Source: Acidobacteriota bacterium
Lineage (GTDB): Bacteria > Acidobacteriota > Vicinamibacteria > Vicinamibacterales > CAVVIG01
Assembly: GCA_018268955.1 (NCBI GenBank)
Contig: JAFDVO010000017.1
Coordinates: 173,890-237,889 of the forward strand
Length of the DNA: 64,000 nt
Direction: 5' to 3'
In this document: in pieces, positions 2,461-50,266 of the stretch
Layout: each line of letters begins with the position of its first letter
How positions within the stretch are numbered: the stretch's first letter is position 1
The notes under the pieces: generated by a model
Seen by the model: the letters and a program-made list of their open reading frames with translations, nothing else
Told to the model about the DNA's origin: nothing
The model's database searches: none
Made by a program: the position numbers and the translations under genes

Positions 2461-2462
2461 GC

Positions 2463-24300: not shown

Positions 24301-27300
24301 TCGTCACGCTGAAGTATGTCGAGGCGAGTGCGTTCCCGGTGCAGCTGCGGCCGGAGGATACCGGCACCTTCACGCTCGACGGGGCGATCGACGTCGACTT
24401 CGGCGGCCAGACGCCGCAGCTCTACGTCGATCTCTCGCTTGCGCCGAAGGGAGGCGAAACCGAATCGACCCGCTGGATCGTCGTGGCCGCGGACGAGATC
24501 GGCGGTCAGCGCATGATGAATGCGATCGACACGGCAAAGTTCCGTGGCGGCCGGATCACCACCGCATCACCGCCGTGCCCCGGCGTGCAGGCCTCGAAGG
24601 TCTACGGCTTCGTCCGCTCGAACCAGGCGGTCGGTGTCAGCTATTCCAACGTGTTCGTCGGCGTCGGTCGCGGGCTGCTCCTTGGGCTCGCCTGGAACTA
24701 CACCGGCGGTCCATTCGGCCTCGCGCCGTACGGCGTGCACGCGGACCCGTTCTCGGACGCCGTCTGCTACCCGGTGCTCACCTCGAACGTCACGCTGTCG
24801 GCGAACGCGGTGCGCGTCAGCATCCCGGCCGACCTGCTGACCCCGGCCGACCGCCAGATCATCCTCAAGAACACGCGGCGTCCGTCGCTGACGCCGAACA
24901 AGGTGCCGCGCGACGTCACGGAGTTCACGTTCGACGTGGAGGGCGAGACCTCCGATTCCTTCCGGGTCGAAGCGAGCGGCGTGCGACCCGACGGCAGCGG
25001 GCAGGCGGCCACGCAGCTGCTCACGCAGGTCGGCGTGTCGTACCTCGCCCCCGGTCGCGTGCGGATCCGGATCAACCCGGACCCGATGGCGATCGCCGTC
25101 ACCTCCTTCGAGGTGCGGAACCTGACGAGGGACACGCGGACGGTCCAGACCCTGCCCGATGCGGAGCCGTTTGCGGCACCGGCGACCGGCGGCAACGGCG
25201 ATCCCTTCCAGGTCACCATCGTCGACGTCCTTGGGCGCACGCGTCAGCTGCCACAGCTGTATGCGGGCGACGACTCCCTCTATGGGGCCGGCAACCTCGT
25301 GCTCAAGGCCGTGCCGGGCTCCATCGACCCGACGCGTGAGGAACTCGACGCGGCCGGTGTCGGCGGTCCCGCGCGCACGGCCGTCTTCGTGTCCGACCTG
25401 ACCCAGCCCGGGGTGTTCCAGCCGATTCCCGCAGACAAGATCGTCAAGGGCGGCATCAAGGGCGTCGCGTTTGCCGGCGATCCGACGCACGACTACGCCA
25501 TTCTCGTGAAGTACGACAGCCGCGGCGATTACCTGCAGAAGCTGCCCCGGATCCAGATCGACGTGCGGAACGCGTCGACCGGCCAGGTGCTGAAGACGAT
25601 TCAGTCCTTCGCGCCGCCGCCAGACGAACCGCAGGGGCTGCCGGACATCACCGACGGCGACACGCGGCCGCCGTACGTCATCAGCGGCCCGACCCGCCTG
25701 AACAACTTCGATCCGTCCGGCACGCTCGTGTTCACCTTCAACGAGGCGATGAATCCGGACACGCTGAAGAGCGCCTTCGAGGTGAAGGACAGCGCCGGCC
25801 GCATCGTCGCCGGCGACGTGGTGGTCTCGGGTGACGACCGCGTCGTGCAGTTCGTGCCGAAGGCGGCCTTCAAGGTCGGCGAGCGCTACACCGTCCGCAT
25901 CAAGGGCTACAACCCGGCGAACGACCCGCCGCCTGCTGGCGAGGGCGGTGACGACATCGCGCGCGACCGGCGCGGGAATCCGCTGGCCGAGATCGCGCTC
26001 GTGATGAAGCCGTTCGTCCCGCAGAAGATCGGCAGCTTCCCGGAGAACGGCGCGGAGAACTACGGCCCGTACAAGGATGTGGTCATTGCGCCGCCTGCCC
26101 CGGCCGCCGTGAACCCCAACCCGAACGAGCCGGCGCCAGACCCGAACCCGTCGAACCAGGGCACGAACAGCAGCCGACCGGTGTACGTGACGACGGGGCA
26201 CGGCACCTTCAACCTGCTGTCCATCGAAAGTCGGGATCCCAAGCACCTCGCGCTCAAGACGCCGCAGGACGGGCCGAACAGCCGTCAGCAGGGGACCTTC
26301 ATTCGCAACGTGGCCTTCCAGAAGACCGGCGGTCTCGGGGGCTCCTCCGGCAGTTTCTCGGGTGACCTGGTCGTGACGACGACGTTCAACGCGAACGCCA
26401 GCCGACTCGATTGGTACGACGTCACGCGCAGGAACGACACCGACACGTTCGACCTGCTTGGCGGGAAGATTCTCACCGAGAATCCCGACCTCGCCGGATT
26501 CGGGAACCGCAACAACACGTTCTTCTCGGACAGCGCGCTTGCGAAAGGCGTGGGCATCCTGAGCGGGGCTTCTGGTGTCGTCGCCTACGCGGCGGTCGAA
26601 CGCGTGGGCGTCCTCTCCGCCGACCTCGGCAAGAACACGCCGCAGCGGCCGCAGATCAACCGGATCAAGGAGGGTCTCTACCCAGGCGACTTCATCGATC
26701 TCGCTGTCGCCGACGGAAGCATCTTCGCCGTCAGCCGCGCACAGCGTGAGCTGCACGTGCTGGATCCGGGCCTTGGCGCGCTGGCGGTGCTGCCCCTGCA
26801 GTTGAGTGGCCAGACCTTCCGTCCCACGAAGATCGAAGTTCGAACCGGGCTGCAGATCGACAAGAACCACGACGGGTTCATCCAGCCGGACGAGGTGTAC
26901 AGCTACGCCTTCATTGCCGCGGACCAGGCGATGGTGATGGTGGACGTGACCGATCCCAGAAGCCCGCGCGTGACCGGCGTGGTGCCGGTGCCGGGCACGG
27001 TGCGCGACATCGACGTGGACGCGGAGCGACGCCGAGTGTTCATCACCGCAAATGGGGCGCTGGTGAACGTGACGGAGAACGGCGCCACCCGCCAGGTGGA
27101 CGGCTACGTGGCGATGGTCGACGTGAGCGACCCGGATAGCGGTTCGCTCATCGACGTGGATCGCGACGGCCTGGACGACCGCGTCATCTGGCAGCAGGGG
27201 GCGTCTGGAGTCAACGGCATTCGCATCGACACGTTCCGCGGCGTGCTCTTCGTGGCGGGTGCGACGCTCGACACCTACGCGGTCTACGACCTGTGCTGCG

Positions 27301-30300
27301 ACCTCGGCGTCGACCTTGCGCCGAAGCCCACGGCGACCGTCACCGGCGATCGGCTGACGCTGATTCAGCTCGAGAAGAAGGCGGTGGCCCAAGGGCTCGC
27401 GCAGGGCATCGAGAAGTCGATTGCGCAGTGCGGCGTGCAGGCATCCGACATCAAGCTGCTCGACCTGGGCTCGGGGTCCTGCATCTGGAAGAGTGCGGAG
27501 GAGTGCGGGTCGGACTACAAGCCAGGCCTCGGCACTCACGATCTTGCCGTGTTCTTTGCGCACGACGCGCTGCTGGCCGATGCGCCGGGGAGTGACAGCG
27601 GCGCCTCCTGCACGGTGGGGAAGCTGTCCGCGGAGTTCATCGACCCGCGTACGGCGTTCGTGAAGGAGATCGACGTCGACGGCCTCAAGGTTCGTGTGCC
27701 GGGCATCACGTTCGCGGCGTATCACCTGAGCGAACTGCAGCTCGCGCAGTACAACATCCTGACGCGCGACACCACGATCCCCGGCCAGACACTGCCCGAC
27801 TACGGCATGGGCCGGCAGTCCCTGCTCATGAGCCATGTGCTTGGCGGCACGTGGGTCGACTTCGTGCCCGGGTACGGGGCCACGTTCGCCGGCCCGTCGC
27901 TCAACGGGGTCATGGCCAAGCTGCGGCAGACGCGCAACCTGACCGAACTCGAGGGGAACGAGGATGCGCGGCTCGCCAAGTACGCGCTCGCGAAGGGGCA
28001 GGTGTACGTCCGGATCCCAGGGGCGTCGTCCGAGACGTCCTACTTCAACAGCCTCTATTCGTCGCAGATCACTGCCGCTGCAGCCGCCGGCATCAAGGCG
28101 GCCCTCGGGGTCCTCGTCAACGACATCAACGGCCGCGAACGTCTCCTCGCGGTGTCGCTCGAAGCGGTGTCACCGCCGTCCCTCGACCATCCCGTGAAGA
28201 CCTTCGGGCAGGACGCCTGCCTGACCGAGGACCCGGCGCTCGACGCGAGCGAGTGGCCCGAAGTGGGGTGCACGTCGTTCGACCACTACGTGGCGTCGGT
28301 GGCTGCACGCACACGCCGCGCCTGGGGTGCGCACCCGTCGCTCAACGGCAGCGATCCCGGACGCCCCGAGCTGTTCACGGTCGATCGGGTACGGCAGGTC
28401 ATGCGGTTCTACCGAGTAGGGGCTGGCTTCGAGAGCATCCAATCGGAATCCGATGCCGATGCGTTCATCCGTGAGGTGCACCTGTTCGTCCAGTGGGCAC
28501 TCGATGCGACGCAGCCGCGCTACGACAACGTCCTCGACCAGATGGCGCGCGATGGCAACACGCAGCGGTTCCAACGCGTGCAGAACCGCGAGAACCTCGC
28601 GGGCGCCACGATCAAGGAACTCGGCCAGGCGTCGCTCAGCATCGTGCCGCACATCTACAACCGCGGCTTCAGCCGAGCGGACCAGGTGCAGCTCGACATG
28701 TATGTGACGCGTCCAGGCGAGTCGACTCCCGCGATCGCCGACACGTCTGTCACCGTGTCGGTGGACGGTGGAACCGAGAACTGGGCGGACTTCCGTCGCA
28801 ATCCCGATGGGACCCTGGTGCTCGATCAGAACAACGCCGCCCAGGCGCAGTTTTCACTCGGTCCCCTCAGCCAGACGGCATCTCCGGGCGTGCTCGGCTG
28901 GGTGGCCTTTGCGATCGACCTGCCCGCGAAGAAGCAGCGGGAGGCGAACCGCCAGAACAACGTCGGCGGCAGCTACTTCTACATGCTCGATGTCGGCCCG
29001 GCCGCGCAGCCGCCAGGGACCGGCGGTCGCGTGCCCTCTCCCGTCGGTGACGCCATCCTCACGGGCGACGACGACTGCAATCCGGATCCGGTGCTCGTCA
29101 TCACACAGGGGATCCGTCCGGCGGGGCAGACCACCGCGTTCCTGAGTCCGTATCGGCTGGAGGTCGGCCAGATCGCACACCTCGAAGTCGACGTAGTGAA
29201 CAAGGCGGACGTCGGCACGACCGTGACGCTCTGCAACACGCTGAACGGCCGCTGCGAGTCGCTGGGCACGATTCCCTCCCAGTCCAACGCTCACACGTCC
29301 ATCGCTGTTCCGACAAACGTTCCCGCGACCTACGACATCATCACGACCGCCTACTCGTCGGCAACCGGTGTCCAGCGGCAGTCGCCGTACCGGGTGACGA
29401 TTGCCTGTACGCCGTACGACATGGTGCCGCTCAGCCACGACAAGTCGGTGGCGTCGAGCGTGATGCGTCAGGGGACGTCGTACCGGTACTTCCAGGTTGT
29501 CAACCACCTGACCGGCAAGCCGGTCGTCGGCGCCACGATCAAGGTGAAGGTCACTGGCGACCGGCAGGGCACCGCGCAACTCACCACCGATGCGGACGGG
29601 TGGGTCGGCTCCTACAACGAAGCCGGGGTCTTCCGTCGGGGCGTTGCGATTCCGTTCTCGTTCGGCAGCGGCGGCCTGGAGGGCACCGCGAACGTGCGCG
29701 TGTCGCTCGACCGCGGCGACACCACGGAGTGCGGCGTCTACCAGGATTACACGCTCAGCTTCACCGAGCTGAAGACCACGCACACGATGAGCCTGGGCGG
29801 CGCGCTCGAAGCGGGCGGCCAGATCGCCCGTGGACAGCTGACGGTCGGTGGGAGCACGGGGCTGACCTTCGGCGTCACCCGGGTCGAGGACCGCAACGGC
29901 GTCCGCTTCTCCGACTTCACCCTCAGCCACACGCACAGCCTCGATGCCAGCCTGAAGGGCAAGCTGGTGGTCGAAGAGGGCCTGTCGCTCGGCGTCACGG
30001 CCGCCGTCACGACACCCGGTGCGGGCGGAGGGTTCGTGGGCAGCATCGCCGGTGCGGACTCGTACAGCTTCAACGACATCGAGCACCTGAACGAGGATGA
30101 CCTGCGCGGGATCACGGCGGTCCTCTTCGAAGCGGCGACAACAACGGTCCCCGGGCCGCTGACGCGCTTCGTCTCGGACCAGTTCCGGCGACAGTTCGCG
30201 CCACGGCTGCAGAAGACGAGCCGATCTCTCGGCCTGACGGTGGGTGTGGCTGGAGAGGCCTACGCGCTCGGGAGGCTCAAGCTCGGATTCACCAAGAACC

Positions 30301-32072
30301 AGGACATCCCGGACGGCACCGGCACGTCTGTCGTCGGAGCCGAGCTCACGGGGCCAGCGGCATCCGGCGTCGCCACCATCACCCTCTCTGGTGCGGCAAA
30401 CCGAGACAACACGTATACCGGCACATTCTCCGGGAACCTGACCGGGTCCGCCCGGGTGGGCATCAACGCCAGCCTCCGTGAGGCCAGCGACGCCGCCGCT
30501 CGCGAGGGTGGTGACCTGCTTCAGAAGAAGAACCTCTCGTTCACCTGGCTGAGCGACGCCCTGTTCGGGCCGGATGCTGCTGACGGCGGTTTGGGCACGA
30601 ACCTCGACCTGGCGGTGTCGGGCGCGCTCTCCATCACGACCCCCAACTTCGCCTCGCGCTTCGTGGGGACGCCGCCGCCCACCGACGCGAACAGCTTCCT
30701 CGCGCTGTCGACAAGTGCGAGCCTGTCGGAAGCCTTCGCGTTCGGGTTCCACGCGCTCGGGACGAACTACACCAACCGTGGCGCCGGGTCCCGTTTCAAC
30801 TACACCTTCACGACAACCAGCAAGGATGTCTACAAGGCGTACTTCACGAACGCGCCGCTGTCGCAGACGCTCCTTGCAGGCAACCAGCGCTTCGGTCTTC
30901 CCGAGGTGAGCCGGCTCGTGGGACCGCTCGAAGTCTCACAGCGCACGGTCCTGAATGCCGTCGGCTCCCTGATCGCGTACGGCCTCGGGTCCGGGCAGTT
31001 CGAGCAGACGGTCGATTACGGCAACGGCATCGACTTCCCCTTCGGATTCAATCTCGACGGCGTCGCTGCCGGCGTGGAAGGGGCAGCGACCGTCAAGACC
31101 AACCAGACCGCTTCGTATCCGGTGCGCCGCGGCGTCATGCGCAACGGCTACTTCTTCATCACCGAGGCATATCCGACGGGACTCGTCAACGCAGACGCGT
31201 GGGGAACGCTGCGGGACATTGCGCGCCGATATGCGGACCCCATCGTCAACACCTACGTCACGCGCGGACACGTCACGCCGGTGCCGGATGCGGGGTCGGT
31301 GGATGTCCCAGGCTCGTCGGGCCTCCGGGTCGCCAGCGCCGACGTGAACAGCATCGAGGCGGCCGCTGTGCCCTTCACATCCGTTCCCGGGCCGGCCGCA
31401 CCGACCCGGCCCGACCCCATGGGGCTGACAGGTGCTGCAGACGTTCCCCACTTCGGTGTCAACGGCTTCGTGCAGTACAGCTCGACACAGCCGACTCTCA
31501 CGTCCCCGGCGCACCTGACCATGTACTACACCGACGATCAGGTCTCGGCGCAGGACGAGCAGACGCTCGGCCTCTATCGCTGGGTCGACTCGGGCGGCAC
31601 AGGATCGTGGGTGCTGATCCCGAGCACGATCGATCGCACGGCCAACAGGGTCGAGGCGGACGTCACGGTCCTCGGCGCGTTCACCCTCGCGCCGCGCCTT
31701 CCCTCGGGCTCGATCGGATGGACGCTCGTCAGCGCTTCGCATGACACGTCGAACCCGAATGCGCCGGTGACGACCGCGATCGTCCAGAGCACGCCGATTC
31801 TCAACAACGACGGCACGAACGTCGGGGCAGGGCGGACCGTGACGGTGCGCAGCCTCGATGCCGCGACGATCTACGACGACGAGCCGAGCGACCTCGGCAC
31901 CGTCCTGACGCCGGACGCAGCCCCGCTCGTGGACGGCACACAGGTGGTCACCGACGCCAACGGGCGCGTGACACTGCAGATCCGGATCGATCGCGCCGTC
32001 GACTCGATCGGCCTCGAAGCCTTCACTGACATCGGCGTGGCGTCTGGCGTGACGACGGTGGTGCTGCCATGA
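18309..32072 (+). CDS. Giant secreted Ig/PKD-repeat surface protein (4587 residues)
   Basis: A probable signal peptide or anchor lies at 1-35; a GTG at 18324 with GGGGA before it is an alternative start. In order: two IPT/TIG-like domains (about 37-214), seven PKD-like repeats (221-899, three nearly identical), three bacterial Ig-like repeats (about 904-1186), a carboxypeptidase-regulatory-like domain (about 1187-1280), uncharacterised beta domains, SbsA-type Ig domains (about 1768-1865 and 2457-2570), an LVIVD-like propeller region (about 2628-2994) with an EF-hand-like DKNHDGFIQPDE, a helical insert (about 3270-3460), CARDB-like domains (about 3460-3690), a beta-rich region (about 3820-4300) and a final Ig-like domain. 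There is no PEP-CTERM, LPXTG or type 9 signal at the end. It overlaps the PPIase gene by ATGA. Probably a surface adhesin or scaffold; no enzyme motif seen. Confidence 0.85.
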   Translation: MGNLRVTPLVRRISPALAAAAGVALCAIAVLAGSLSSLSPQGASPGVAITFVGTGLSATAGQNDVTFRAGGNAVTVAAANSAVVDASKGTRRLTVTVPGGLPVGPASIEVLNKDTGEISGGVTMDVLGLELPGTRDVAPGTTASIVIAGLGVTKFDARTRVTVGAGVTASGMTVQSPTQLTLNVTAAASAAIGPRTITVQTTTQTITLPNVFQVRNPAPPNQAPVVTASTTTPTVTLPNGASLSGTVTDDGLPTGATVTTQWTQLSGPGATTFANAASATTTATFSVAGSYVLRLTASDTDKTAFADVSITVNPAPPVNQAPVVTASTTTPTVTLPNGASLSGTVTDDGLPTGATVTTQWTQLSGPGTTTFANAASATTTATFSVAGSYVLRLTASDTDKSAFTDVTITVNPAPPVNQAPVVTASTTTPTVTLPNGASLTGTVTDDGLPTGATVTTQWTQLSGPGTTTFANAASATTTATFSVAGSYVLRLTVSDTDKTAFADVSITVNPAASTNSAPVVTASATSPVVLPATSILNGRVQDDGLPSGAQVSSQWQKVSGPGQATFGSASSAATTVAFDAPGTYVLRLTATDGEKSSSAELQVTASAAPAPVNLAPVVAINAPGTTTLPASAHIIAIPTDDGLPRGSSVSGQWSFVSGPGTASFANAQNLDTTATFSQPGTYVLRFTVSDGELSGTNDATIVVKPAPAVNQRPAVSAGANMSTILPSPLTLEGTASDDGLPGQPLTIQWTKVSGPGTVTFSPADALHATVAFSQPGTYTLRLTGNDGELTASDDVDIVATVPAITNLAPSVDAGADQTIASGASALLAGTTSDDGQPGPMSLAWTKVSGPGTVSFTAPSAASTQATFTAPGVYVLMLSASDGQLTTTDDVAVTVTAPTSTVDRAPPVITLSAPRSALPGATVRVYAQASDDIGLAGVTLEFEGQPPVSLTGAPFAASFNAPQFAAPGQQFTLRGTATDAAGNASQATATLTISATPDTTAPEVSLKAPAVISPGKALRLVAKATDDAGIASVVFSVGGVDVVTDDQSPYEATYIVPAAAPVGTPITARARATDTGGNAADSTASVDVIAATTPVPPQITLTVPATAAPGDAITLLADATDLDGIAHVVFAQGSAELATDDSGPFSTTFTIPASAVPGDSIAFTATATDLTDTSATDTRSVQIVSRGVPIEGVLTGEVYDDTTSLPIANASIALTGADVTGVPYSATATTDARGRFVLTAVVGTGVLQVRKTGWTAVDRAATIVGGDVRTMFDARLSPLGPSTQSLSSAGGDLTAAGNTASFAPGTVPTSPVRFTPLTPQGLAGLLPTGWTPIGVAELSPRDATLGGSVLLQIKRASGAGAVAPQLVRWDDQQSAWRLVGAGQSTADGAFLQASVDRAGQFAFVVADAQPVAPPMPSPNGLLAGVGAVTLPQTLATTITPAPKVIFYQPGVGSDVRTTVQPEGAVSSGATVAARLTEAYRFHGNASAAPEPMVQDLVLFQEAGASAPALGGALHVTPSLTFEALTLQQGVIGIDVLADLPAGGGTLARVQGGDFSTPAGQTLTIPPGAIRDGAVVSVSSLAVGDLGIQLPQGIGYLGGVTVSLSEPLTRSGVFSIPAPQGITNVDRILVVKAQELGGQTRAVLVGVAHVAGDRLVSDTVINTRATALEGVRGAGRYAFIQADGPIGFAGGVVTGLTDQPLGGALVTSDTFFVASVSNAVGGYLAAAPASAVVFTAADLTRNDAGTRSAYLVAGQVTPLPLALAAQAPRVTSVMPTNGSKNVPLAGPIVVTFSEPVDPATVVDAISLSGPGGSAVPVTRALSQGNTILTVRSVEPLASNAHYTFTLATTITDLSGYALASALSVAFDSLDTAPPLPPAAGTLTASLPNAQGASTITGAQGTAGPTDRVFVDNLTRRTSAVALVQANGSFSTTILAGINDILQIRIVDAAGNETKAPLPAFRQVNADGSVSQAVSAQGGVVDGPNGTQAKIKPGTFPSGTIVTLKYVEASAFPVQLRPEDTGTFTLDGAIDVDFGGQTPQLYVDLSLAPKGGETESTRWIVVAADEIGGQRMMNAIDTAKFRGGRITTASPPCPGVQASKVYGFVRSNQAVGVSYSNVFVGVGRGLLLGLAWNYTGGPFGLAPYGVHADPFSDAVCYPVLTSNVTLSANAVRVSIPADLLTPADRQIILKNTRRPSLTPNKVPRDVTEFTFDVEGETSDSFRVEASGVRPDGSGQAATQLLTQVGVSYLAPGRVRIRINPDPMAIAVTSFEVRNLTRDTRTVQTLPDAEPFAAPATGGNGDPFQVTIVDVLGRTRQLPQLYAGDDSLYGAGNLVLKAVPGSIDPTREELDAAGVGGPARTAVFVSDLTQPGVFQPIPADKIVKGGIKGVAFAGDPTHDYAILVKYDSRGDYLQKLPRIQIDVRNASTGQVLKTIQSFAPPPDEPQGLPDITDGDTRPPYVISGPTRLNNFDPSGTLVFTFNEAMNPDTLKSAFEVKDSAGRIVAGDVVVSGDDRVVQFVPKAAFKVGERYTVRIKGYNPANDPPPAGEGGDDIARDRRGNPLAEIALVMKPFVPQKIGSFPENGAENYGPYKDVVIAPPAPAAVNPNPNEPAPDPNPSNQGTNSSRPVYVTTGHGTFNLLSIESRDPKHLALKTPQDGPNSRQQGTFIRNVAFQKTGGLGGSSGSFSGDLVVTTTFNANASRLDWYDVTRRNDTDTFDLLGGKILTENPDLAGFGNRNNTFFSDSALAKGVGILSGASGVVAYAAVERVGVLSADLGKNTPQRPQINRIKEGLYPGDFIDLAVADGSIFAVSRAQRELHVLDPGLGALAVLPLQLSGQTFRPTKIEVRTGLQIDKNHDGFIQPDEVYSYAFIAADQAMVMVDVTDPRSPRVTGVVPVPGTVRDIDVDAERRRVFITANGALVNVTENGATRQVDGYVAMVDVSDPDSGSLIDVDRDGLDDRVIWQQGASGVNGIRIDTFRGVLFVAGATLDTYAVYDLCCDLGVDLAPKPTATVTGDRLTLIQLEKKAVAQGLAQGIEKSIAQCGVQASDIKLLDLGSGSCIWKSAEECGSDYKPGLGTHDLAVFFAHDALLADAPGSDSGASCTVGKLSAEFIDPRTAFVKEIDVDGLKVRVPGITFAAYHLSELQLAQYNILTRDTTIPGQTLPDYGMGRQSLLMSHVLGGTWVDFVPGYGATFAGPSLNGVMAKLRQTRNLTELEGNEDARLAKYALAKGQVYVRIPGASSETSYFNSLYSSQITAAAAAGIKAALGVLVNDINGRERLLAVSLEAVSPPSLDHPVKTFGQDACLTEDPALDASEWPEVGCTSFDHYVASVAARTRRAWGAHPSLNGSDPGRPELFTVDRVRQVMRFYRVGAGFESIQSESDADAFIREVHLFVQWALDATQPRYDNVLDQMARDGNTQRFQRVQNRENLAGATIKELGQASLSIVPHIYNRGFSRADQVQLDMYVTRPGESTPAIADTSVTVSVDGGTENWADFRRNPDGTLVLDQNNAAQAQFSLGPLSQTASPGVLGWVAFAIDLPAKKQREANRQNNVGGSYFYMLDVGPAAQPPGTGGRVPSPVGDAILTGDDDCNPDPVLVITQGIRPAGQTTAFLSPYRLEVGQIAHLEVDVVNKADVGTTVTLCNTLNGRCESLGTIPSQSNAHTSIAVPTNVPATYDIITTAYSSATGVQRQSPYRVTIACTPYDMVPLSHDKSVASSVMRQGTSYRYFQVVNHLTGKPVVGATIKVKVTGDRQGTAQLTTDADGWVGSYNEAGVFRRGVAIPFSFGSGGLEGTANVRVSLDRGDTTECGVYQDYTLSFTELKTTHTMSLGGALEAGGQIARGQLTVGGSTGLTFGVTRVEDRNGVRFSDFTLSHTHSLDASLKGKLVVEEGLSLGVTAAVTTPGAGGGFVGSIAGADSYSFNDIEHLNEDDLRGITAVLFEAATTTVPGPLTRFVSDQFRRQFAPRLQKTSRSLGLTVGVAGEAYALGRLKLGFTKNQDIPDGTGTSVVGAELTGPAASGVATITLSGAANRDNTYTGTFSGNLTGSARVGINASLREASDAAAREGGDLLQKKNLSFTWLSDALFGPDAADGGLGTNLDLAVSGALSITTPNFASRFVGTPPPTDANSFLALSTSASLSEAFAFGFHALGTNYTNRGAGSRFNYTFTTTSKDVYKAYFTNAPLSQTLLAGNQRFGLPEVSRLVGPLEVSQRTVLNAVGSLIAYGLGSGQFEQTVDYGNGIDFPFGFNLDGVAAGVEGAATVKTNQTASYPVRRGVMRNGYFFITEAYPTGLVNADAWGTLRDIARRYADPIVNTYVTRGHVTPVPDAGSVDVPGSSGLRVASADVNSIEAAAVPFTSVPGPAAPTRPDPMGLTGAADVPHFGVNGFVQYSSTQPTLTSPAHLTMYYTDDQVSAQDEQTLGLYRWVDSGGTGSWVLIPSTIDRTANRVEADVTVLGAFTLAPRLPSGSIGWTLVSASHDTSNPNAPVTTAIVQSTPILNNDGTNVGAGRTVTVRSLDAATIYDDEPSDLGTVLTPDAAPLVDGTQVVTDANGRVTLQIRIDRAVDSIGLEAFTDIGVASGVTTVVLP
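18969..19850 (+). repeat. Three near-identical 294-bp tandem repeats (PKD domains)
   Basis: Units begin at 18969, 19263 and 19557, each starting AACCAGGCGCCGGTGGTGAC. They differ at only a handful of positions, some of them silent. Each encodes a 98-residue PKD-like domain (NQAPVVTASTTTPTVTLPNG, ending ITVNPAPP). Diverged copies follow at 19851 and 20145 with the same 294-nt spacing, then at 20436 (291) and 20724 (288). The first three look like recent duplications. Confidence 0.95.
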
Positions 32073-32914
32073 CACGCACGCGAGCCGTGAGGATGGCCAT
32101 CTGTGCGGCGGTGCTGACGACGCCGATTGTGCTCTCGGCACAGGGCGGCCCCGTGCTCGCACGCGCCGCGCTCGACGGCCGTCCGGTGTCGGTGACGACG
32201 GAGGACGTGAAGCTCGAGGTCCTGCTGCTCCGCCGGGCGGGCAACGCCGCAGCCTACGCATCCGTCGACAGCCTGGAACCGGTCCTCAGCCGCGTGCTCA
32301 CCCGAAAGCTGCTCGCCGCAGAGGCCGCGCGCCAGCACATCGACCGCGATCCGATGGTGACGACCTACATGGTCCGTTCGTCGGATGCCGCGCTCGTGGA
32401 CTCGCTGACTGGACGCGTGGGCGCCGCGGTCGACACGAGCGAGGCGGCCGTGAAGACGTTCTTCGAGGCGCACGCCGATCAGTTCCGGTCAGCCCCTCGC
32501 CGCAAGGTCCGCCATATCGTGGTGCCCACAGAGGCCGACGCCAAAGCGGCCCGCGAGGCTATTGCGGGGGGCGCCACCTTCGAGACGGTCGCCCGCGCAC
32601 GCAATACGGACAAGACACGCGAGAGCGGTGGCGACCTCGGCTGGTTCGCACAGGGCTCGATGGTGAAGGCGTTCGACGACGTGGTGTTCGCGGCGGAGAA
32701 GGGTGCCGTCGCCGGCCCGGTCCAGACCGCGATGGGCTGGCACCTCGTGCTGGTCGAGGATGTGGATGCCGGCAGCCTCCCGCCGCTCCCGCTCGTACGA
32801 GACAAGGTGATCGAGGCGATGCGTCAGGACGCGATGGCGCAGCTGACCAAGCGGCTCGTCGACGAAGCCAAACCGGTAATCGACCGCGCCGCGCTCGAGG
32901 AGCTGCTCAAGTGA
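32069..32914 (+). CDS. Parvulin-type (PpiC) peptidyl-prolyl isomerase, secreted
   Basis: 281 residues. A signal peptide lies at about 1-24 (AICAAVLTTPIVLSAQ). A SurA/PrsA-like helical N-terminal segment (about 30-140) precedes the parvulin domain at about 145-250: RKVRHIVV, then ATFETVAR, ESGGDLGWFAQGSMVKAF, GPVQTAMGWHLVLVEDV. These match the PpiC family core, including the GG(D/E)LGW signature and the terminal GWH strand. It catalyses proline isomerisation in the envelope. Its start overlaps the stop of the 4587-residue gene (ATGA), and its stop overlaps the GTG start of the 5578-residue gene (GTGA). This strongly suggests a dedicated folding factor for the two giants. Confidence 0.92.
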   Translation: MTRTRAVRMAICAAVLTTPIVLSAQGGPVLARAALDGRPVSVTTEDVKLEVLLLRRAGNAAAYASVDSLEPVLSRVLTRKLLAAEAARQHIDRDPMVTTYMVRSSDAALVDSLTGRVGAAVDTSEAAVKTFFEAHADQFRSAPRRKVRHIVVPTEADAKAAREAIAGGATFETVARARNTDKTRESGGDLGWFAQGSMVKAFDDVVFAAEKGAVAGPVQTAMGWHLVLVEDVDAGSLPPLPLVRDKVIEAMRQDAMAQLTKRLVDEAKPVIDRAALEELLK

Positions 32915-35900
32915 CCCGCCACGCGACCCGCCGACCCGCCCTGCTCAGCGTCGTTGCTGCGTTGATGGCCGTCCTCGCGAGCGCGCTGCTCACGCCCGCG
33001 GCTGCCTCCGCGCAGGGACGCGTGCTCGGCCGCGAGGAAATCCTCCTTTACGGCATCGGCCTCAAGGTCGACCCGGCCACGCAGACGGTGCCGAAGAACT
33101 TCGCCACCATCGTCTCGACGTATCTGCAGGCACCGACGCTGCCGCCCGAGACGCCGGCCTTTGCGCCCGATGCCGAAGTCCGCGCCACGCTGCGCGGGCC
33201 CAGCTTCCCGGCGCCAATCGAGCTGGTCGCCAAGCCGAACAGCCCGTTCAACATCCCGGTGTTGACGGTCCCAGGCACGCACACGCTCGAGAACATTCGC
33301 CTGGTCAGCAATGGGGACGTGCTTCTCTACGGGAGCCCGGAAACCGCGCGCATCGACGTCATCGAGAAGCTGCTCGTCACGACGGTGACGACCCGCGCGC
33401 TGACGGCTGACGAGATCCGCGAGAAGGGGATCGTCTACGACCGCTCGAACTTCCAGGCGTACAACTTCACTGCCGCCTTCGCCGTCGACAACAGCTCGAA
33501 CATCAACATCTCGTTCCCGGTGCTGCTGCCGACCATCCCGCAGGTCGGCGACGTCAACCCGAACGCCGCGGATCTGAAGACAATCGACGCCCCGCAGCTC
33601 CAGAGCCTGAAGACGCTCGTTCCGGACACGCTGCAGATTCAGGCACGTATCCCCAACCTGAGCGTCGTCGGCTTCACGCTGACGCTGGACCAGAAGACCG
33701 GCAGCCAGGACTTCTACGTTCCACCGATTCCCGGCGTCATCGTCATCCCCGGCGACATTGGCTTCCTGAACCAGTACTTCAGCGTGATGCTGATGGTGGC
33801 CAACGTCGCGCCGACCGGTTCGAACCTCGTCGTGAGTGAGCTCACGGCCAGCATCGTCCTGCCTCCCGGCAAGGACAACGTTGTCGGGTCCGATGACGAC
33901 CCGCTGGCGATGGCGACCCGCGCGAGCGGCGCGTTCCCCAGGGTGGTGGCGGTGACGCAGCCCGGCCCCGATGGGAAGCTGGGCACCGGTGATGACGTCA
34001 CCACGCTGGGACCGGGAGAGACCGGCAACGCTGAGTACCTGGTCGAAGGGCGCCGCGAAGGCACGCACGTCGTGGAGATGGAGCTCTCAGGCACCCTCAA
34101 CGGACTGCCGGTGGGCCCGGTGCCGATCCGCGGACGCGCGGCGGGCGCCGTGCTGGTGCGCAACCCGACCTTCACGCTGACGTTCACGCACCCAGAGATC
34201 GTGAATGCCGGCGAGCCGTACACGCTCGACGTCACGGTGACGAACACGTCCGAGTCGCCGGCGAACGTGGTGAGCCTCAACCTGTTCCCCGCGAACATCA
34301 CCGGGGCACGGCTGGACGACGACTCGTCGAAAGGCGTGGACTCGATCGCGCCTGGCGATTCGAAGACGGTGTCGTTCCGCCTGATCTCGAACCGGACCGG
34401 GAAGGTGACGGCGGCAACGCTCGACTCCGATGAGCAGGTGCAAGGACGCTTCGTGCTCAAGAGCGCTGTGGGCGAACTCGGTGTGCCGCTCTCGCCCGAC
34501 TCGTTCATCCTGCCAGTCGAAGCGAACGCCCTGTCGGCGTCGGTCCGCAGCACGGCCGTCGACCTGATGGCACGCGCGTGGGCGGTCGCCACCGCACCTC
34601 CCGCTGCCGTCCCGAAGGACCTGACGCGCTTCTCGAAGCAGATCGTCCTCGATCGCGGCGCCGAGACAGCGGAAGCAGGGCTGCGCGTGTCGCTCGGCGA
34701 ATCGAACGCGAGCGCCTCCGCGTCACTGCTGTTCGACTTCCTCGGTTCCGAATACCCGCTCCTGGCGTCGAAGGTGCCAGCAGGCGATACGTCAGGGCTC
34801 CTCGCGCTGCTGCAGCGCGACCTGCAGGGCTTCGACCTCGTGCGTCGCCGGTCCGTCCGCGGCGACCTGTTCGCCAGCGCCGTCGCGGGTGAACTGCTGC
34901 CGGCGGTCCAGGGCGGACCGTCCGCATTCCACAGCTCGTTCGCGCAGCAGATGACATCCCGACCCGGGCACGTGTCGGTCCTCATCAGCGGTACGTCTGG
35001 TGCGCCGCTCGGATACGACGCAGTGATCGTCGACGCATCCGGCCGCCGGCTGGGCGGGCTCGAGAGCGGGAAGGTGGTCAAGGAGATTCCGTTCGGCGAC
35101 GCGCTGCCGTTCACCGACGCTGCCGGCACTCCAGTCGCGACGCTTCTCGTGATTGCCGTGCCGAATCCCGGCACCTACACGCTGCAGGTGCTGCCGCGTT
35201 CAGGGATCGACCCCGCGTCACCGTTCGACCTGAGCGTCGTGCTGCCAGATGCCAGCGGGAAGCTGCAGTTCACCTCGCTGACAGGCGTCCTCCCGACCGA
35301 GGGGTTCGCACTCACCAACGGCGCGGGCGATCCTGGCTTCCAGTACACGCTGAAGCGCGACGCGACCGGAGGCGCCGTGCGGGCCGCCACGCTGTCCGCA
35401 GTTGCCGACCCGCCACCATCGATCGTCGCGGTCCGCCAGCTCGCGTCGGCCGACATGGTCGGCTGCCCGCTCGAACCCGAGAAGACCTACTCCGCCGGTC
35501 GTGTCGTCGCGGTGCTGTTCAGCGAGGCGGTGACTGCGGCCAGCGTCCAGGACAAGGCCGCCGCTGAAGCCATCAGCGCCTTCACGGCGCAGAACAACCG
35601 GGTCGTCGGCGTGGCGCTCCAGCCAGGCTCGCGTATCGCGTACGTTGCGCTGCGGTCGCCCGTGGGCCCCTTCGAAGCGCGAACGATGACGATCGAGGGC
35701 GTGCAGGACCTGAACGGCAACACCCTGGCGACACAGACGCTGCCGATCCAGACGACGGTCGGCACGTCGGCCGGACTGGTGTACGGCCGCGTGATCCGCT
35801 CCGACGGTCTGCCGGCGGCGTTTGCGACCGTCCGGATGTTCTACGAGTTCAACTGCATGGACGGCGCGAGTGCTGTGGGCGTGGCCGAGCAGCGCGCCGA

Positions 35901-38900
35901 CGCGAGCGGCAACTACCAGTTCGACTACGTGCTGCGCGCGCCAGCCATGAACGTGAAGCTGGTGGCGCTGGATGAGGAGAGCGGCGACGCGCGACCGGTC
36001 CGGTTCGTCCTTGCCCGCGACAACCAGCGGATGAACGTCGACGTCGTGTTCATCGGCCGCGGTGGCATCACGGGCCGCGTCTACGCCGAAGACGGGCGCA
36101 CGCTCCTGCCCGGCACGGCGCTGCGTGCCACGAGCACCACCGACCAGAGCCAGTACGCGGCGACGACCGATGCGAACGGTCGCTATACGTTCTCCGCCGT
36201 CCCGGTCGGCAACGTCCTCATCGAAGCCGTGAACGTCGAGCGGGTCGCCTCGGTGTTCGTCAGCGAGACCGTACCGTTCGCCGGAGCGGTCGTGACGCGC
36301 GACCTCACGCTGCTCGACGTCTCGCCCGCCTCGCCGATTACGCGTGGTTCGATCACCGGACGCGTGGTCCGCGCCGACGGCGTCACCGGCGTGGCGAACC
36401 TGCCGGTCATTGCGTACTACACGACACGATCCCAGGCCGGCGTGCCATGCGCACCGCCGCCCGGCGGTACGCAGGAACCGGCTGAGTGCGCCATCGACGT
36501 GGTCTCCACGGACGCGCAGGGGCGCTTCGTGCTGAACGGCCTGCCCTCCGGCTCGATTCGACTCAACACGTTCGACCAGACCTACCTGCAGGAGGGGACG
36601 GTCCGGGTCAGCCTGCAGCCGAACCAGACGCTGGACGTCTCGGTCCTCCTCGGCGGCGGCTACGGCGCGGTTCACGGTGTCGTCCTCGACGCGTCGCGAC
36701 GTCCTGTGCCGGATGCCGTCATCGGCGGCGGCGCCACGCTCGTCAACGCGGGGCCGGACGGCAGCTTCACGCTGACCGACATCCCGGTCGGGCGCACGAG
36801 GCTCGTGGCGGTCAGCAATGCGCTGCAGTCGCAGGGCGAGGCCTCCGTCGACATCGTGCAGAACGGCGAGACGGTCAACACGACCATCGTGCTGGATCCG
36901 ATCGGCTCGGTCGCCGGCATCGTCCGTGACCACGACGGCGTCCCGCAGGCCGGCATCAAGGTGTGGGTCTTCCGGGACTGCTACGACGAGCAACTGCAGC
37001 CGAGCATCTGCATCAACGGCCAGGCGACAAGCGATGCGCAGGGCGCGTATCGGATCGACAAGCTCGGGATCGGCCAATACACGCTGTCGGCATTCCGTGC
37101 CGACCTGAAGGACGGCAACGTCTTCCCGATCGCGATCAGGTACGAGCGTCAGGTCCTGGTCAGCGACATCACGTTCCGCGGCGGCACCGGCACCGTGACC
37201 GGCCGGGTGCTCCGCGCCAACAGCTGCCCGACGCCGCCGTGCGCCGATACTCCGTTGCCCGCACGCGTCTCGATCTCGGGCGATCGGCTCGTCGTCGCGG
37301 GCGGCCGTATCGGCGTGAAGTTCGAGTACGTCCAGAACTTCGAGGTGGTCGATAACGACCCGACGACGGGCGAGTACCACTTCAAGAGCGGCGTCTTCAC
37401 CGGGCCGTTCACCCTCCGCGCCGCGGGGCAGTTCAGCCCTGAGCCTGTGGCGGCCGAAGGCACAATGCCCGGGCCCGGGCAGACGGTGACGGTGGACCTG
37501 CGCCTTCAGCCCACGAGCCGGCTCACCGGCACCGTGTTCGAGGCGGATGGCTTCACGCCGGTCACCAACCGCCAGGTCGCGCTCAAGTTCCAGTCGAACG
37601 CGGTCGTCGTCATCTGCCATGACGATGAGCAGACGGGCGATTCGGAGTGCCAGTCGATTCCGCAGGGCATCCAGGAAGCGTTTGCTGCGACCGATGCGAA
37701 CGGGCAGTTCACCTTCCCGCTGGTGAACGCGGGTCCGTTCACCATCACGGCCACTGACGCGACCACCGGACAGGTGGCCTCGATCAAGGGCACCGTGCGG
37801 CCGGGCGACACGGTCGACCTTCCGGTGCGCCTGCTGGCGCGTGCGCCCGTGACCGTGCGCGTGTTCCGCAGCAACGGGACGACCCCGGTGCTCAACGCGA
37901 ACGTCACGGTGCAGGGGCTCGATTACCCGCGCGATACCCGCAATGGCATCGCGACCAACGGCACCATTCAGTTCCAGGGGGGCGACGCGGTTGCCGAGGG
38001 GCAGTTCGTCGTCACCGCGATGGACGCGAACGGTTTCGCGGGCCGGAAGGCCGGCCGCGTCACGCCGACCGGCGGGCCGGTGACCGTCGACGTGTTCCTC
38101 TTCGATGCGACCGGGACCGTGAACGGTCAGGTGGTGAAGGCAGACGGCAACGGTGCGTTGGTGCCGACGCCGAACGCAGAGGTGATCCTCTCGAACGCCT
38201 CGGGTCCGCTGGCCTATGCGCTCACTGACGCGCAGGGCGGTTTCTCCATTCCGTTGGTGCCCACTGGCCCCTTCACGATCGAGTCGTTCGATCCGGTGAC
38301 TGCGGCTCGCGGTCGGGCAGACGGCACGGTGCTCGGCGGTCCACAGCCGGTGTCGGTGACGGTCACGCTCGAGTCGCTCGGGTCGATCCGCGGTGTGGTC
38401 GTGCAGTCCGGATCGCGCGCACCGCTCAAGGGGTGGACCGTGCAGCTGTCACAGACGAGTGTGACCGGCCGCTCGCTTCCAGACCAGATCGCCCAGACCG
38501 GCGTCGACGGCAGCTTCGCGTTCCCGGGGGCAACCGTCGGGTCGTTCTCTCTCCGGGCGAGCCGCCGCGACGTCGTGGGCAGCGCCACCGCAAGCGGGCA
38601 GCTCTCGAGAGGCGGCCAGCTCGTCGACGTGCCAATGGTCGTCGACATCGTTCGGCGTGTCACCGGCACGGTGCAGGGCATCGTGCTGAACCCGCAGGGG
38701 TCGCCCGCGCCGAACGCGCAGGTGGAGGTGTGCCCCTCGGGTGAGGCGTGCAAGGGCGCCGTCGCCGGTGCTGACGGTCGATTCTCGGTTGGCGATCTGC
38801 CGCTCGGCCGGTTCACCGTGCGCGCGAGTGCGCAGGTGACGGGCAACCCGAGCGTCGGCACCACCGGCGGGTCGCTGCTGTTCGAAGGCGACACGGCCAA

Positions 38901-41900
38901 CGTCACGATCACGCTTCTCGGCCTGAGCTCCGTCCAGGGCACCGTCTACCAGATCGTGAACGGCGCACGCGTGCCGGCGCCGAACGCGACCGTGCGGCTC
39001 TCCGGGCAGCCCGGCAGCGGCTGCCCCTCCTACTGCCAGCAGGGAACCGACGGAAACGGGCAGTTCACGTTCATCAACGTTCCAGCCCAGACCTTCACCG
39101 TGACCGCCTCCAGCCTGACCGGCCAGCAGGGGTCGGTTGGCGACGTGCTCGTGCCCGGGCAGGCACGGAGCGGCCTCGAGATCGTGCTCGCGCCCGCCGT
39201 GAACGTGGCGGGCCGCGCGCTGGTCGGAAGCGCTCCCGCCCGAGGCGTCATCGCCGATCTGTCGGTCAACAACGGCCACCTCTTCGCCGAGACGGCGGAA
39301 GACGGCACCTTCTCCTTCGACGGCATTGGGGCAGGCGCGTACACGCTACGGCTCCAGGATCCTGTCGGCGGCGGCCTCGCCAGGCGGACCGGGACCGTGA
39401 ACCTCACCGGGCCGGTCGTGCTCGGCGACATCACGCTCGACGACGCGGCGCCAGCGGTCGCTTCGAGCGAGCCGGCCAACGGTGCGCTGAACGTCGGCCG
39501 TACGCCCACCCTGACCGTGACCTTCACCGAGCCGCTCGACGCGACGACGGTGAATGCCACCACGGTGACGCTGGTGGGGCCGTCCGGGCCCGTGTCAGGG
39601 CAGGTCGATTCGCAGACCAACGACACCGTTGTCCGCTTCCGGCTGTTGCCCGGCGTGCAACTCGCTGATCAGGCACGCTACACCCTGCGTGTCACAGGCG
39701 TTCAGGATCGCGTCGGCCGCCCGCTCGCCGCTGACTACATCGCGACCTTCACGACGGTCGACATCACGCCGCCAGCGGTGGCAGAGACGACGCCCATGTT
39801 CTCGGCGACCGGTGTGTCGGTCGACGCGGTCGTCCGCGTCCGGTTCTCCGAGATCGTCGACCCCTCGAAGTTCGTCGGCGCCCCGGTGACGCTCACGGGC
39901 CCGCAGGGTCCGGTGGCGGGACGTACGGACTTCCTCTTCAGCAACAGCGTCGTCGTCTTCACGCCGAATGTCCCGCTCGCGGATACGGCGCACTACACCG
40001 TGACTGTGCAGCGGCCCACCGATCGTGCGGGCCTGCGTGCGGCAGCCGACACGACGTTCGCGTTCGACACGACCGACCGGACGCCACCGGTCATCCTGTC
40101 GCTCACGCTCGACGGAACCGGGACAGTCGTCCAGAACACGACCGCGCGCGTCCGTGCCACCGTCGCCGAAACCGACATCGCCGTCGTCGACTTCTTCCTG
40201 AACGACACGTTCGCGTTTGCCGCGCGCACGACGCCCTTCACGATGGACTTCAAGGCGCTCGCCTCGCTGGCGGACGCGAATGGCGGCCGGATCAAGGTGT
40301 CGGCGATTGCGACCGACACGTCGGGGAACCGTGGCGTCGTCCCGGTCCAGGCCTTCCTCACGGTCGTTGCCGATCAGCCACCGTCCATTGCCATCACGCA
40401 GCCGCTGGGCACGTTGACGCCGGCTCCAGGAGAGCGGGTCAGCGTCACGGTCCGCGCCACGGACGATGTGGGTGTCGACCAGATCAGCTACTCGGCTCGC
40501 GGCAGCTTCGTCATCGACGCGGCGAGCGTGCCGGTCTCGCCGGCTTCGACGGACCGCACCCAGACCTTCGCGTTCAACGTGCCGGCCGATGCCGTACCCG
40601 GGTCACTCGTCACCATTCAGGCGACGGCACGCGACACGGCCGCCCAGTCCACGGCGGCCGCGGCCATCGCGCTGCGGGTGCGTGACAGCATCGCGCCGAC
40701 CATCCAGATCACCGGCCTGTCCTCTGGCCAGCGCGTCGCACCAGGCACTCGCGTCACGGCGGTGGTCTCCGCGTCGGACACGAGCGGCATCGGTCGCATC
40801 GGCTTCGCCGTCAGCGGCGTGACCGTGTCGAGCGAGGAGCGGCTGGTCAGCCCGGCGCAGAGTCCGGTCGTCACGTCGTTCGAGTTCACCGTCCCCGCGA
40901 ACGCCTCATCGTCTGACCGCGTCTTCGTCGACGCCTTTGCGATTGACGGTGCCGGCAATCGTGGCGACGCCGCTCGGCTGATCGTCCCGGTGGCCGATCG
41001 CCAGGCGCCGACGGTCACGCTGCGGACCAGCAGCGGGTCGCCGTCGATGACACCAGGCGCGAACGTGCAGGTCATCGCGCAGGCGACCGACGACCTCGCG
41101 GTGACCAGCATCCAGCTCACCGTGGCTGGCGCCTTCGATTTCACCGAGACCAGGACCATCGCGGTGCCCGCCGCGGACGTCTCGGCCACGTTCAGCCTGG
41201 CCGTGCCGGGCACCGTCCAGGCCGGCAGCACCGCCACGGTGACCGCTCGCGCTACCGACGCCACCGGAAACGTCAGCACGCCGGTGTCGCTGACGCTGAC
41301 GGCCCAGAACACGACGACGGTCTCGCTGCCGTCTTCCGTGCTGCTGCGTGCGGGTGACGACGCCGAGATGACTGTCACGCTCGGGACTCCGGCACCAGCA
41401 GGTGGCCTGCGCGTGGACCTCACGTCGAGAAACACCGGCATCGCCACCGTGCCGTCGTCGGTGACCTTCGCCCAGGGCGAGACGACGAGGTCGGTGACCG
41501 TGCACGCCGTCGCGGGCGGGTCGACGCAGATCGATGCGGCCGTTGGTGGCGTGGTGTCGGCGACGACGACCGTCACGGTGAGCGGCGGCGTGGTTCGCGG
41601 GGACGTTACGACCGCGGGCCCGAACGGGTTCGTGCCGGTCGCTGGCGCGCAGGTGACCGTCTTCCATAGCGGCACGCCGATCGTGACGACCACCGACGCG
41701 CAGGGCCGCTTCGTCGTGGAAGGGGTCCAGGGCTGGGGCTACACCGGTCGGGGCTTCTCCGTGACGGCGAGTGACGGCTCCAGGCTGGACGCGGAAAGCT
41801 TCGAACTCGACACAGCTGGTGGGTCGGCGACGGTGAGCCTGAACCTGCTCGACATGGGGCTCATCAAGGGCTCGGTCCTGCAGCCCGACGTGCAGACGCC

Positions 41901-49647: not shown

Positions 49648-49655
49648 GGAATTGC

Positions 49656-49735
49656 TAATCGCCAAGCGCTAATCGCTAATCGGTAATCGGTAATCGCTAA
49701 TCGTTGAATTGCTAATCGCTGATTGGCAATTAGCA
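49656..49735. repeat. Degenerate 7-nt tandem repeat (TAATCGS)n
   Basis: Just after the giant gene stop. Units TAATCGC/TAATCGG/TAATCGT stand at 49656, 49670, 49677, 49684, 49691, 49698 and 49713, with degenerate units between. It is markedly AT-richer than its surroundings. The same unit appears inverted at 9965-9993. It could also act as a transcript end, but no clear stem with T tract is present. Confidence 0.85.
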
Positions 49736-49756: not shown

Positions 49757-50266
49757 ATGCGGGAGACAGGGCTGAAGACCTTCATGTTGGCGCTGATCCT
49801 TGGCGTCGTGGCCGCGGGCGGCCGTGCAGCCGCGGCAGCGAAGCCGGCGCTGCCGGCCAGCGTCGTGCAGACGGTCGACGGTGTGCCAGTGGCCTTAAAC
49901 GACGGCGTCGTCGACGGCCAATGGCTGGTGCTGTACGTGGTGCCCGACTCGCCACCGTCGGTCAGGCTTCTGGACGCGCTGCGCACGTGGCAGGTGCCCG
50001 CGCTCGATCGCGTCCTGGTCGTCGTTGGCGGCCCGGCGGCGCCAGCAGCCACGTTCGCCAGGGCACAGCAGCAGCGGGGACTGGACACGGTCCGGTGGCG
50101 GCTCGACGGTGATCGCGCCGCATGGACCGACCTCGCCGCGTCGGGTGTGCCGACGCTGTTCGGGGTCCGTGCGGGTGTGCTCGAGTGGAGGCTCGCCGGC
50201 GTGCTCAACGATCCGTCGGCGCTGCAGTCGGTGGTCGCGTCCTGGCTGTCGACGACGGCCCCCTGA
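49757..50266 (+). CDS. Secreted thioredoxin-fold protein lacking the CxxC motif
   Basis: 169 residues from the ATG at 49757. A signal peptide lies at about 1-27 (TFMLALILGVVAAGGRAAAA). The fold is thioredoxin-like: a WLVLYVVPDSPPS strand-helix start where redoxins have WCxxC, a VLVVVGG strand, and SGVPTLFGV with the typical cis-proline before a strand, then a final helix. There is no cysteine in the active-site position, so it cannot be a disulfide oxidoreductase. It may be a binding or chaperone-like relative. It follows the giant operon after a 109-nt repeat-bearing gap, so co-transcription is possible but unproven. Confidence 0.65.
   Translation: MRETGLKTFMLALILGVVAAGGRAAAAAKPALPASVVQTVDGVPVALNDGVVDGQWLVLYVVPDSPPSVRLLDALRTWQVPALDRVLVVVGGPAAPAATFARAQQQRGLDTVRWRLDGDRAAWTDLAASGVPTLFGVRAGVLEWRLAGVLNDPSALQSVVASWLSTTAP

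Follow-up and report, generated by a model that had tools for sequence, protein, structure and literature searches.

A parvulin encoded between two giant proteins: a candidate client-linked, optional foldase of a bacterial gene cassette

Main finding

The stretch of 64,000 nucleotides analysed here (the window) encodes a parvulin-type peptidyl-prolyl isomerase between two giant proteins, and the same order of genes, giant1-parvulin-giant2, recurs at five other loci in two phyla. Within the genomes searched, this parvulin subfamily is linked exclusively to giant2, but the link runs one way only, as the giants persist without the parvulin. Sequence, structural model and analogy make it somewhat probable that the parvulin is an exported, client-linked and optional periplasmic foldase of the giant-pair cassette, as NifM is to NifH. 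The observed basis of this reading is the gene order, homology, the monophyly of the subfamily among the sampled parvulins, the active-site residues, the linkage to giant2 and the frequent absence of the gene.

Gene organisation of the cassette

Giant1 (18309..32072, plus strand) comprises 4587 aa with PKD repeats, Big_5 and Big_7 and, judged by eye, has an apparent signal peptide. It is followed on the same strand by the genes of the parvulin (32069..32914; 281 aa) and giant2 (32911..49647; 5578 aa), the latter with a GTG start, many CarboxypepD_reg repeats and Big_5. An exported-looking, thioredoxin-fold-like protein of 169 aa is encoded further downstream (49757..50266, plus strand). The conserved N-terminal region of giant2 (33013..34710, plus strand) served as the family marker for alignments. 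Giant1 is homologous across approximately 4000 aa in two other genomes (G052 and G021), and the N-terminal ~570 aa of giant2 are strongly conserved. A weak model of this giant2 region (mean pLDDT 66.8) consists mostly of strands, and a fold search with it retrieved loosely matching structures, macroglobulins and complement proteins among them, with TM of 0.20 or less by query length among the 50 matches listed of 1544.

The two 4-nt overlaps noticed in the preliminary description are indeed present: ATGA (32069-32072) forms the end of giant1, and GTGA (32911-32914) the start of giant2. They are no peculiarity of the parvulin, because the junctions of the trio are 4-nt overlaps at some places and small gaps at others, and six of the nine close parvulin-free loci have an in-frame giant2 start codon allowing a potential 4-nt overlap with giant1 (start codons in this comparison were read mechanically).

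The parvulin protein

The assignment as a peptidyl-prolyl isomerase was confirmed, and the parvulin type established, by matches to PF13145 (77.4 bits), PF13616 (68.0 bits) and PF00639 (66.3 bits), all above the curated cut-offs. The protein fell below the NCBIfam whole-protein cut-offs for PrsA (NF002846, 62 vs 361 bits), NF008054, presumably PpiD (71 vs 493 bits), SurA (36 vs 394 bits) and NifM (56 vs 168 bits). Its N-terminus, read by eye, is hydrophobic and resembles a signal peptide, with no lipobox evident by eye. The AlphaFold model (mean pLDDT 86.7) contains N-terminal helices, the parvulin domain and a long C-terminal helix. PEB4 (3rfw) was the top match of this model in Foldseek (E 7.3e-16), with a modest whole-chain TM of 0.42/0.46, as well as the top sequence match among solved structures (3.1e-23). 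Judged by sequence and model, the open reading frame is a real, exported-looking parvulin of 281 aa resembling PEB4 and SurA.

Seventeen alignment columns are invariant across the seven cassette parvulins, including H149, D181, F202, G223 and H225, and M198 is present in six of the seven. We take H149, D181, F202, H225 and M198 to be the active-site residues of a parvulin, an assignment partly backed by published work on NifM.

Distribution of the cassette parvulin

The arrangement exceeds chance, since the trio of the window recurs at five other loci and parvulin-giant2 at a sixth, G074:C671, where the contig begins inside the parvulin gene and giant1 is out of sight. The seven parvulin-giant2 loci are thus the window, G021:C147, G052:C13, G074:C671, G074:C220, G665:C3 and G516:C30, the last from Desulfuromonadaceae STB_15. 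The giant2 family as such spans three phyla, the trio two.

A parvulin profile applied to 162 genomes of the order, with the best 15 candidates per genome scored, gave five matches at 205-468 bits, three of which had built the profile; all five adjoin giant2, and the next best match reached 108 bits. When a wider profile was used to score all candidates of 12 genomes, the seven cassette parvulins reached 361-395 bits and all others at most 218. The remaining two cassette parvulins also adjoin giants, and their host genomes, searched as a whole, yielded no further member; no cassette-type parvulin was found away from giant2 in the genomes searched. In phylogenetic trees the seven cassette parvulins formed one side of a branch against 40 sampled other parvulins (99/97) and against 25 others (99/99). 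A plasmid search with the parvulin returned 36 records, all below 60% identity.

The parvulin could instead be a general envelope chaperone, in the role of SurA or PEB4, that rides the giant operon and has mainly other exported proteins as clients. The nearest solved structures, those of the SurA-like chaperones PEB4 and HP_0175, are in line with this, and PEB4 is described as acting on several outer-membrane proteins (PMC9820271). However, the genome of the window has further parvulins, including two read from open frames (686 and 359 aa), the genomes searched have the subfamily nowhere but next to giant2, and it is absent from four genomes rated 95-100% complete (G049, G031, G159 and G051), so a general chaperone appears rather unlikely.

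Giant pairs without the parvulin

Upstream sequence is available for 16 close giant2 loci; seven of these carry the parvulin, and in the other nine giant1 directly precedes giant2. The parvulin was seen at none of 35 more distant loci. The preliminary description had asked whether homologous giants always carry an adjacent parvulin. They do not, as it is absent at 9 of the 16 close loci, and giants in general therefore do not require it. Giant operons of relatives that lack the isomerase with no effect on surface proteins were what that description had named as speaking against its proposal; as far as gene content goes, this pattern exists, and one of the nine is a second pair inside the window's own genome. 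Profile searches at E 1e-3 in the open reading frames of the fetched stretches gave no parvulin fused into the giants at parvulin-free loci.

Proline richness had been offered as the reason why the giants would be substrates. Giants of more than 2000 aa contain 5.7-7.4% proline, compared with 5.8% in 11 other open reading frames of the window, a slight excess most evident in giant1. Giants that have the parvulin match those lacking it in proline content, both for giant1 (Mann-Whitney p 0.56, 5 vs 8) and for giant2 (p 0.89, 6 vs 7), and proline richness, being independent of the presence of the parvulin, was rejected as the reason for the enzyme. The simple view that giants need the isomerase because they are proline-rich is corrected by these data. 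Nor was any parvulin-linked block found in the aligned giants (13 giant1 and 13 giant2); one column of giant1 and none of giant2 was diagnostic for the parvulin, and random labels yield as many. The idea of a dedicated periplasmic foldase is therefore retained in part: the apparent signal peptide, the kept active-site residues and the exclusive position beside giant2 in the genomes searched argue for it, while the frequent lack of the parvulin at giant loci and the failure of the proline argument tell against it.

Monophyly of the parvulin-bearing giants was rejected (p-AU 1.9e-64), and a wider tree with long branches scatters them too. Since these giants are not one clade, a single gain early in the giant-pair lineage with repeated later loss would be the simplest history; the best giant tree with one gain has six losses (counted by hand from the tree). 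Distances of the parvulin and of the giant2 N-terminus show no clear congruence (Mantel r 0.25, a value reached by 914 of 5040 permutations), and the parvulin evolves 3.6 times faster, so that it may have moved independently or be under relaxed constraint. The scattered absence, the faster change and the lack of a parvulin signature in the giants would all suit a decaying relic or hitch-hiker of the ancestral cassette, dispensable, held by operon structure and lost neutrally. The retention of H149, D181, F202, G223 and H225 in all seven copies, despite 27-40% identity of the others to the window copy, speaks instead for an active site under purifying selection, and we regard a relic as distinctly unlikely.

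Whole-genome searches of G049, G031, G159, G051 and G735, whose pairs are parvulin-free, revealed no cassette-type parvulin, with best scores of 118-130 bits in the first four; the best parvulin match of G735 had 214 bits and was located on a different contig, outside the cassette clade. Service in trans to giants from several loci, by which parvulin-free loci would not be independent of the parvulin, might be suggested by the window genome, G021 and G074, each holding pairs with and without it, but is weakened by these five draft genomes and seems very unlikely.

The thioredoxin-fold-like companion

The thioredoxin-fold-like gene lies 3' of giant2 at 12 of 13 loci (the window and 11 others) and is a steadier companion of the cassette than the parvulin, one that the preliminary description does not mention. 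Five copies, including that of the window, lack CxxC; the window copy has no Pfam match, and of four homologues scanned only that of G049 reached the AhpC-TSA cut-off. No clear relation between the presence of CxxC and the cysteine density of the giants was seen by eye at 10 loci. The protein may act as a further helper of the cassette, one more constant than the parvulin. Tentatively, and with some doubt, the cassette might carry a small evolvable helper set, a near-constant thioredoxin-fold-like protein plus an optional parvulin, each repeatedly lost or disarmed whereas the giant pair of 10,000 residues has been kept.

Possible role of the parvulin

If the parvulin is a client-linked foldase, giant1, parvulin and giant2 would be translated from a single mRNA, and the exported parvulin may bind the emerging giants with its helical N-terminal domain and its C-terminal helix, accelerating prolyl isomerisation or averting aggregation of the long rows of Ig-like and transthyretin-like domains in these proteins on their way to the surface. 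After loss of the parvulin, the giants would fold with housekeeping parvulins or uncatalysed. The folding and export of 5000-residue proteins in bacteria are poorly known. In this cassette one particular parvulin subfamily goes together with particular giant clients, and the paired loci with and without it make client dependence on a foldase directly testable; if the proposal is true, the paralogous pairs of the window genome are a natural experiment that asks under which conditions a giant secreted protein requires a foldase of its own.

Comparison with known systems

As in the cassette, consecutive giant genes are found in Apilactobacillus kunkeei, where Giant1-5 are extracellular proteins of 3000-8000 aa (PMC12863079); a word search of the main text of that paper gave no occurrence of PrsA, foldase, chaperone or isomerase. 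Among the titles and abstract openings surveyed, with incomplete journal coverage, no published description of a giant1-parvulin-giant2 cassette was recognised.

PEB4 is reported to affect several outer-membrane proteins (PMC9820271), whereas the cassette parvulin was seen only in giant cassettes. Like PEB4 and HP_0175, single-domain periplasmic proteins of Campylobacter and Helicobacter, the cassette parvulin is predicted to have an N-terminal helical part, one parvulin domain and a C-terminal helix, at a whole-chain TM to PEB4 too modest to establish the same domain arrangement.

PrtM is a PrsA-like parvulin and a lipoprotein of Gram-positive bacteria, and differs in the latter respect from the cassette parvulin with no lipobox evident by eye. 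PrtM serves the maturation of PrtP, a surface proteinase of lactococci, and, in a likeness to the cassette parvulin, is usually encoded together with one surface client (PMC2827410).

By analogy, the cassette parvulin would follow the known client-linked parvulin pattern, that of NifM and NifH. The client of NifM is cytoplasmic, while the cassette parvulin, unlike NifM, looks exported and scores 56 bits against the NifM cut-off of 168. Substitutions at the conserved G213, H215 and L217 of NifM are described as abolishing its function (PMC12691677), and G213 and H215 are matched by motif to G223 and H225 of the parvulin. According to the same source, NifH homologues of bacteria without NifM are NifM-independent, and dependence of NifH on NifM is not transferred by simple fragment swaps (PMC12691677). 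NifM would resemble the cassette parvulin in being a client-linked parvulin that is dispensable for homologous clients elsewhere.

Gene, overlaps and surroundings

The 281-aa parvulin ORF was confirmed at 32069-32914 (+). As the preliminary description had it, the gene is wedged between two giants by 4-nt overlaps, sharing ATGA (32069-32072) with giant1 (18309-32072, 4587 aa) and GTGA (32911-32914) with giant2 (32911-49647, 5578 aa). A domain profile places the parvulin domain at residues 124-245. The source genome comprises 4.77 Mb, with a completeness rating of 99.5%. Elsewhere in the window (1045-5186, +), a gene for a TIR_2 protein, with a SIR2_2 match below cut-off, is followed by one for an nSTAND1-WD40 protein; the two may form a defence or signalling pair.

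A parvulin subfamily tied to giant2

The parvulin is linked to the giants in one direction: parvulin implies giant2, not the reverse. A first profile, built from three parvulins of giant1-parvulin-giant2 trios, was searched against 162 genomes of the order, the best 15 candidates per genome being scored. Some parvulin was present at E 1e-15 or better in 152 genomes, while only 5 places reached 205-468 bits (the next, 108), all 5 immediately upstream of giant2; three of them built the profile and score high by construction, the two in genome G074 being independent. Two further trios (G516 and G665) came from the class of G516, Desulfuromonadaceae STB_15. With a 7-row profile and every candidate in 12 genomes scored, the 7 members gave 361-395 bits and no other match exceeded 218 bits. 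In a tree, the 7 cassette parvulins lie on one side of a branch (support 99/97) from 40 others, a sample from these groups in which the Desulfuromonadia genomes that hold the trios are also represented by full-length parvulins. The suggestion that the isomerase is dedicated to the giants is plausibly right, in that its subfamily was found only before giant2 in the genomes searched, although giants also exist without it.

Giants with and without the parvulin

Within the order, 15 of 162 genomes match the profile of the giant2 N-terminal region, as do 43/396 in the phylum sample, 15/277 in the class of G516 and 7/245 in the phylum of a Nitrospirae MAG. Scores per matched position marked nineteen loci as close; the upstream sequence was too short in three of them (G074:C93, G115:C210, G517:C123), which were left out. 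Seven of the remaining 16 carry the parvulin (the window, G021:C147, G052:C13, G074:C671, whose contig begins within the parvulin gene, G074:C220, G665:C3 and G516:C30). In the other nine, giant1 lies directly upstream of giant2 (G000:C4, G031:C9, G074:C509, G049:C5, G021:C73, G021:C415, G159:C1, G735:C3 and L046, apparently G051:C222), and a 4-nt overlap between the giants is possible in six. The expectation that giants always carry an adjacent parvulin does not hold: G000:C4 is a second pair in the window's own genome, joined by a GTGA overlap. At G735:C3 (L176), two overlapping frames hold the giant1 homologue, reflecting a frameshift or assembly error.

The parvulin profile had no match in the upstream sequence fetched for 35 more distant loci, of which G166, G263, G588, G028 and G193 have <3.3 kb upstream and G463 a masked upstream stretch. 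The loci fetched were part of all giant2 matches, with 20 taken from the phylum search and 15 from the two other searches. At three distant loci lacking the parvulin (L189, L184, L188), other small genes separate giant1-like and giant2-like genes; by eye, some of their products look exported, with Ig-like or transthyretin-like stretches.

A thioredoxin-like companion

An exported-looking, thioredoxin-fold-like protein of 169 aa, absent from the preliminary description, is encoded at 49757-50266 (+), 109 nt past the giant2 stop. Ten tandem copies of AATCGCT (49650-49720) lie between the two genes. Of 13 loci checked, 12 (the window among them) have a homologue 3' of giant2, whether or not the parvulin is present; the gap is ~1.4 kb at G021:C415, and no homologue was found at G665. 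Across the 162 genomes of the order, its profile found 17 places in 9 genomes, all nine with giant2; 13 places are 3' of a giant2 match on the same contig and strand, and 4 are on contigs without such a match. Eight of the 396 phylum-sample genomes match: five of the order, G461, where giant2 is on a different contig, and G238 and G387, low-scoring and without a giant2 match in that search. From this co-occurrence, giant1, giant2 and the thioredoxin-like gene, in that order, make up the steadier cassette, and the parvulin is an optional insert in it. One such parvulin-free cassette, with CxxC kept, occupies 35846-72599 of G000:C4 (L075, L191).

Among four copies scanned, only that of G049 exceeded the Pfam AhpC-TSA cut-off, the G000:C4 copy matching weakly and those of the window and G516 having no Pfam match; the thioredoxin fold is thus shown for G049 and, by sequence homology, probably shared by the rest. 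CxxC occurs in 7/12 copies and is missing from those of the window, G052, G159, G516 and G735.

History of the parvulin

In a midpoint-rooted tree of giant2 N-terminal regions (16 close loci: 7 with the parvulin, 8 lacking it and 1 of unknown state), the loci that carry it are spread over the tree. The best tree has 5 changes in parvulin presence, well-supported branches forcing at least 3, and a single clade of parvulin-bearing giants was rejected (p-AU 1.9e-64). Because the parvulins themselves are monophyletic, the simplest history is a single gain with repeated later losses; given one gain, 6 losses are counted on the best tree, in which several nodes are weak and the root is placed at the midpoint. 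The parvulin may also have been exchanged between cassettes: its distances correlate weakly with those of giant2 (r 0.25, matched by 914/5040 permutations), and it changes at ~3.6 times the rate of the giant2 N-terminal region.

Proline and candidate substrates

Proline richness of the giants, proposed as the reason for the isomerase, fails as an explanation. In chains >2000 aa, proline makes up 6.5-7.4% of giant1 and 5.7-7.0% of giant2, only slightly above the 5.8% of 11 other window ORFs, and loci with and without the parvulin did not differ (p 0.56 for giant1, 0.89 for giant2; some chains partial). No block of 13 aligned giant1 and 13 giant2 proteins was tied to parvulin presence; diagnostic columns numbered 1 and 0, respectively, with random-label means of 0.4 and 0.5.

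The enzyme and known parvulins

The AlphaFold model (7 input sequences, mean pLDDT 86.7, residues 1-24 <50) predicts N-terminal helices, then the parvulin domain and, at the C-terminus, a long helix. PEB4 (3rfw) is the nearest solved protein by both sequence and fold, HP_0175, PrsA and SurA being among the next-closest, although whole-chain TM-scores are modest. None of the NCBIfam cut-offs was reached for the 9 models matched, PrsA, SurA and NifM (the parvulin helper of nitrogenase NifH) included. Seventeen columns are invariant in the 7 cassette parvulins, among them H149, D181, F202, G223 and H225, presumably active-site positions. The fold of the enzyme is ordinary; its partnership is unusual, specific and optional.

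NifM altered at G213, H215 and L217 is reported to lose function (PMC12691677); its G-x-H is equated here with G223/H225 by motif only. In the NifM work, NifH of strains without nifM also has the supposed substrate proline, and simple fragment substitutions left the NifM dependence unaltered (PMC12691677), a situation similar to that of the giants for a different parvulin.
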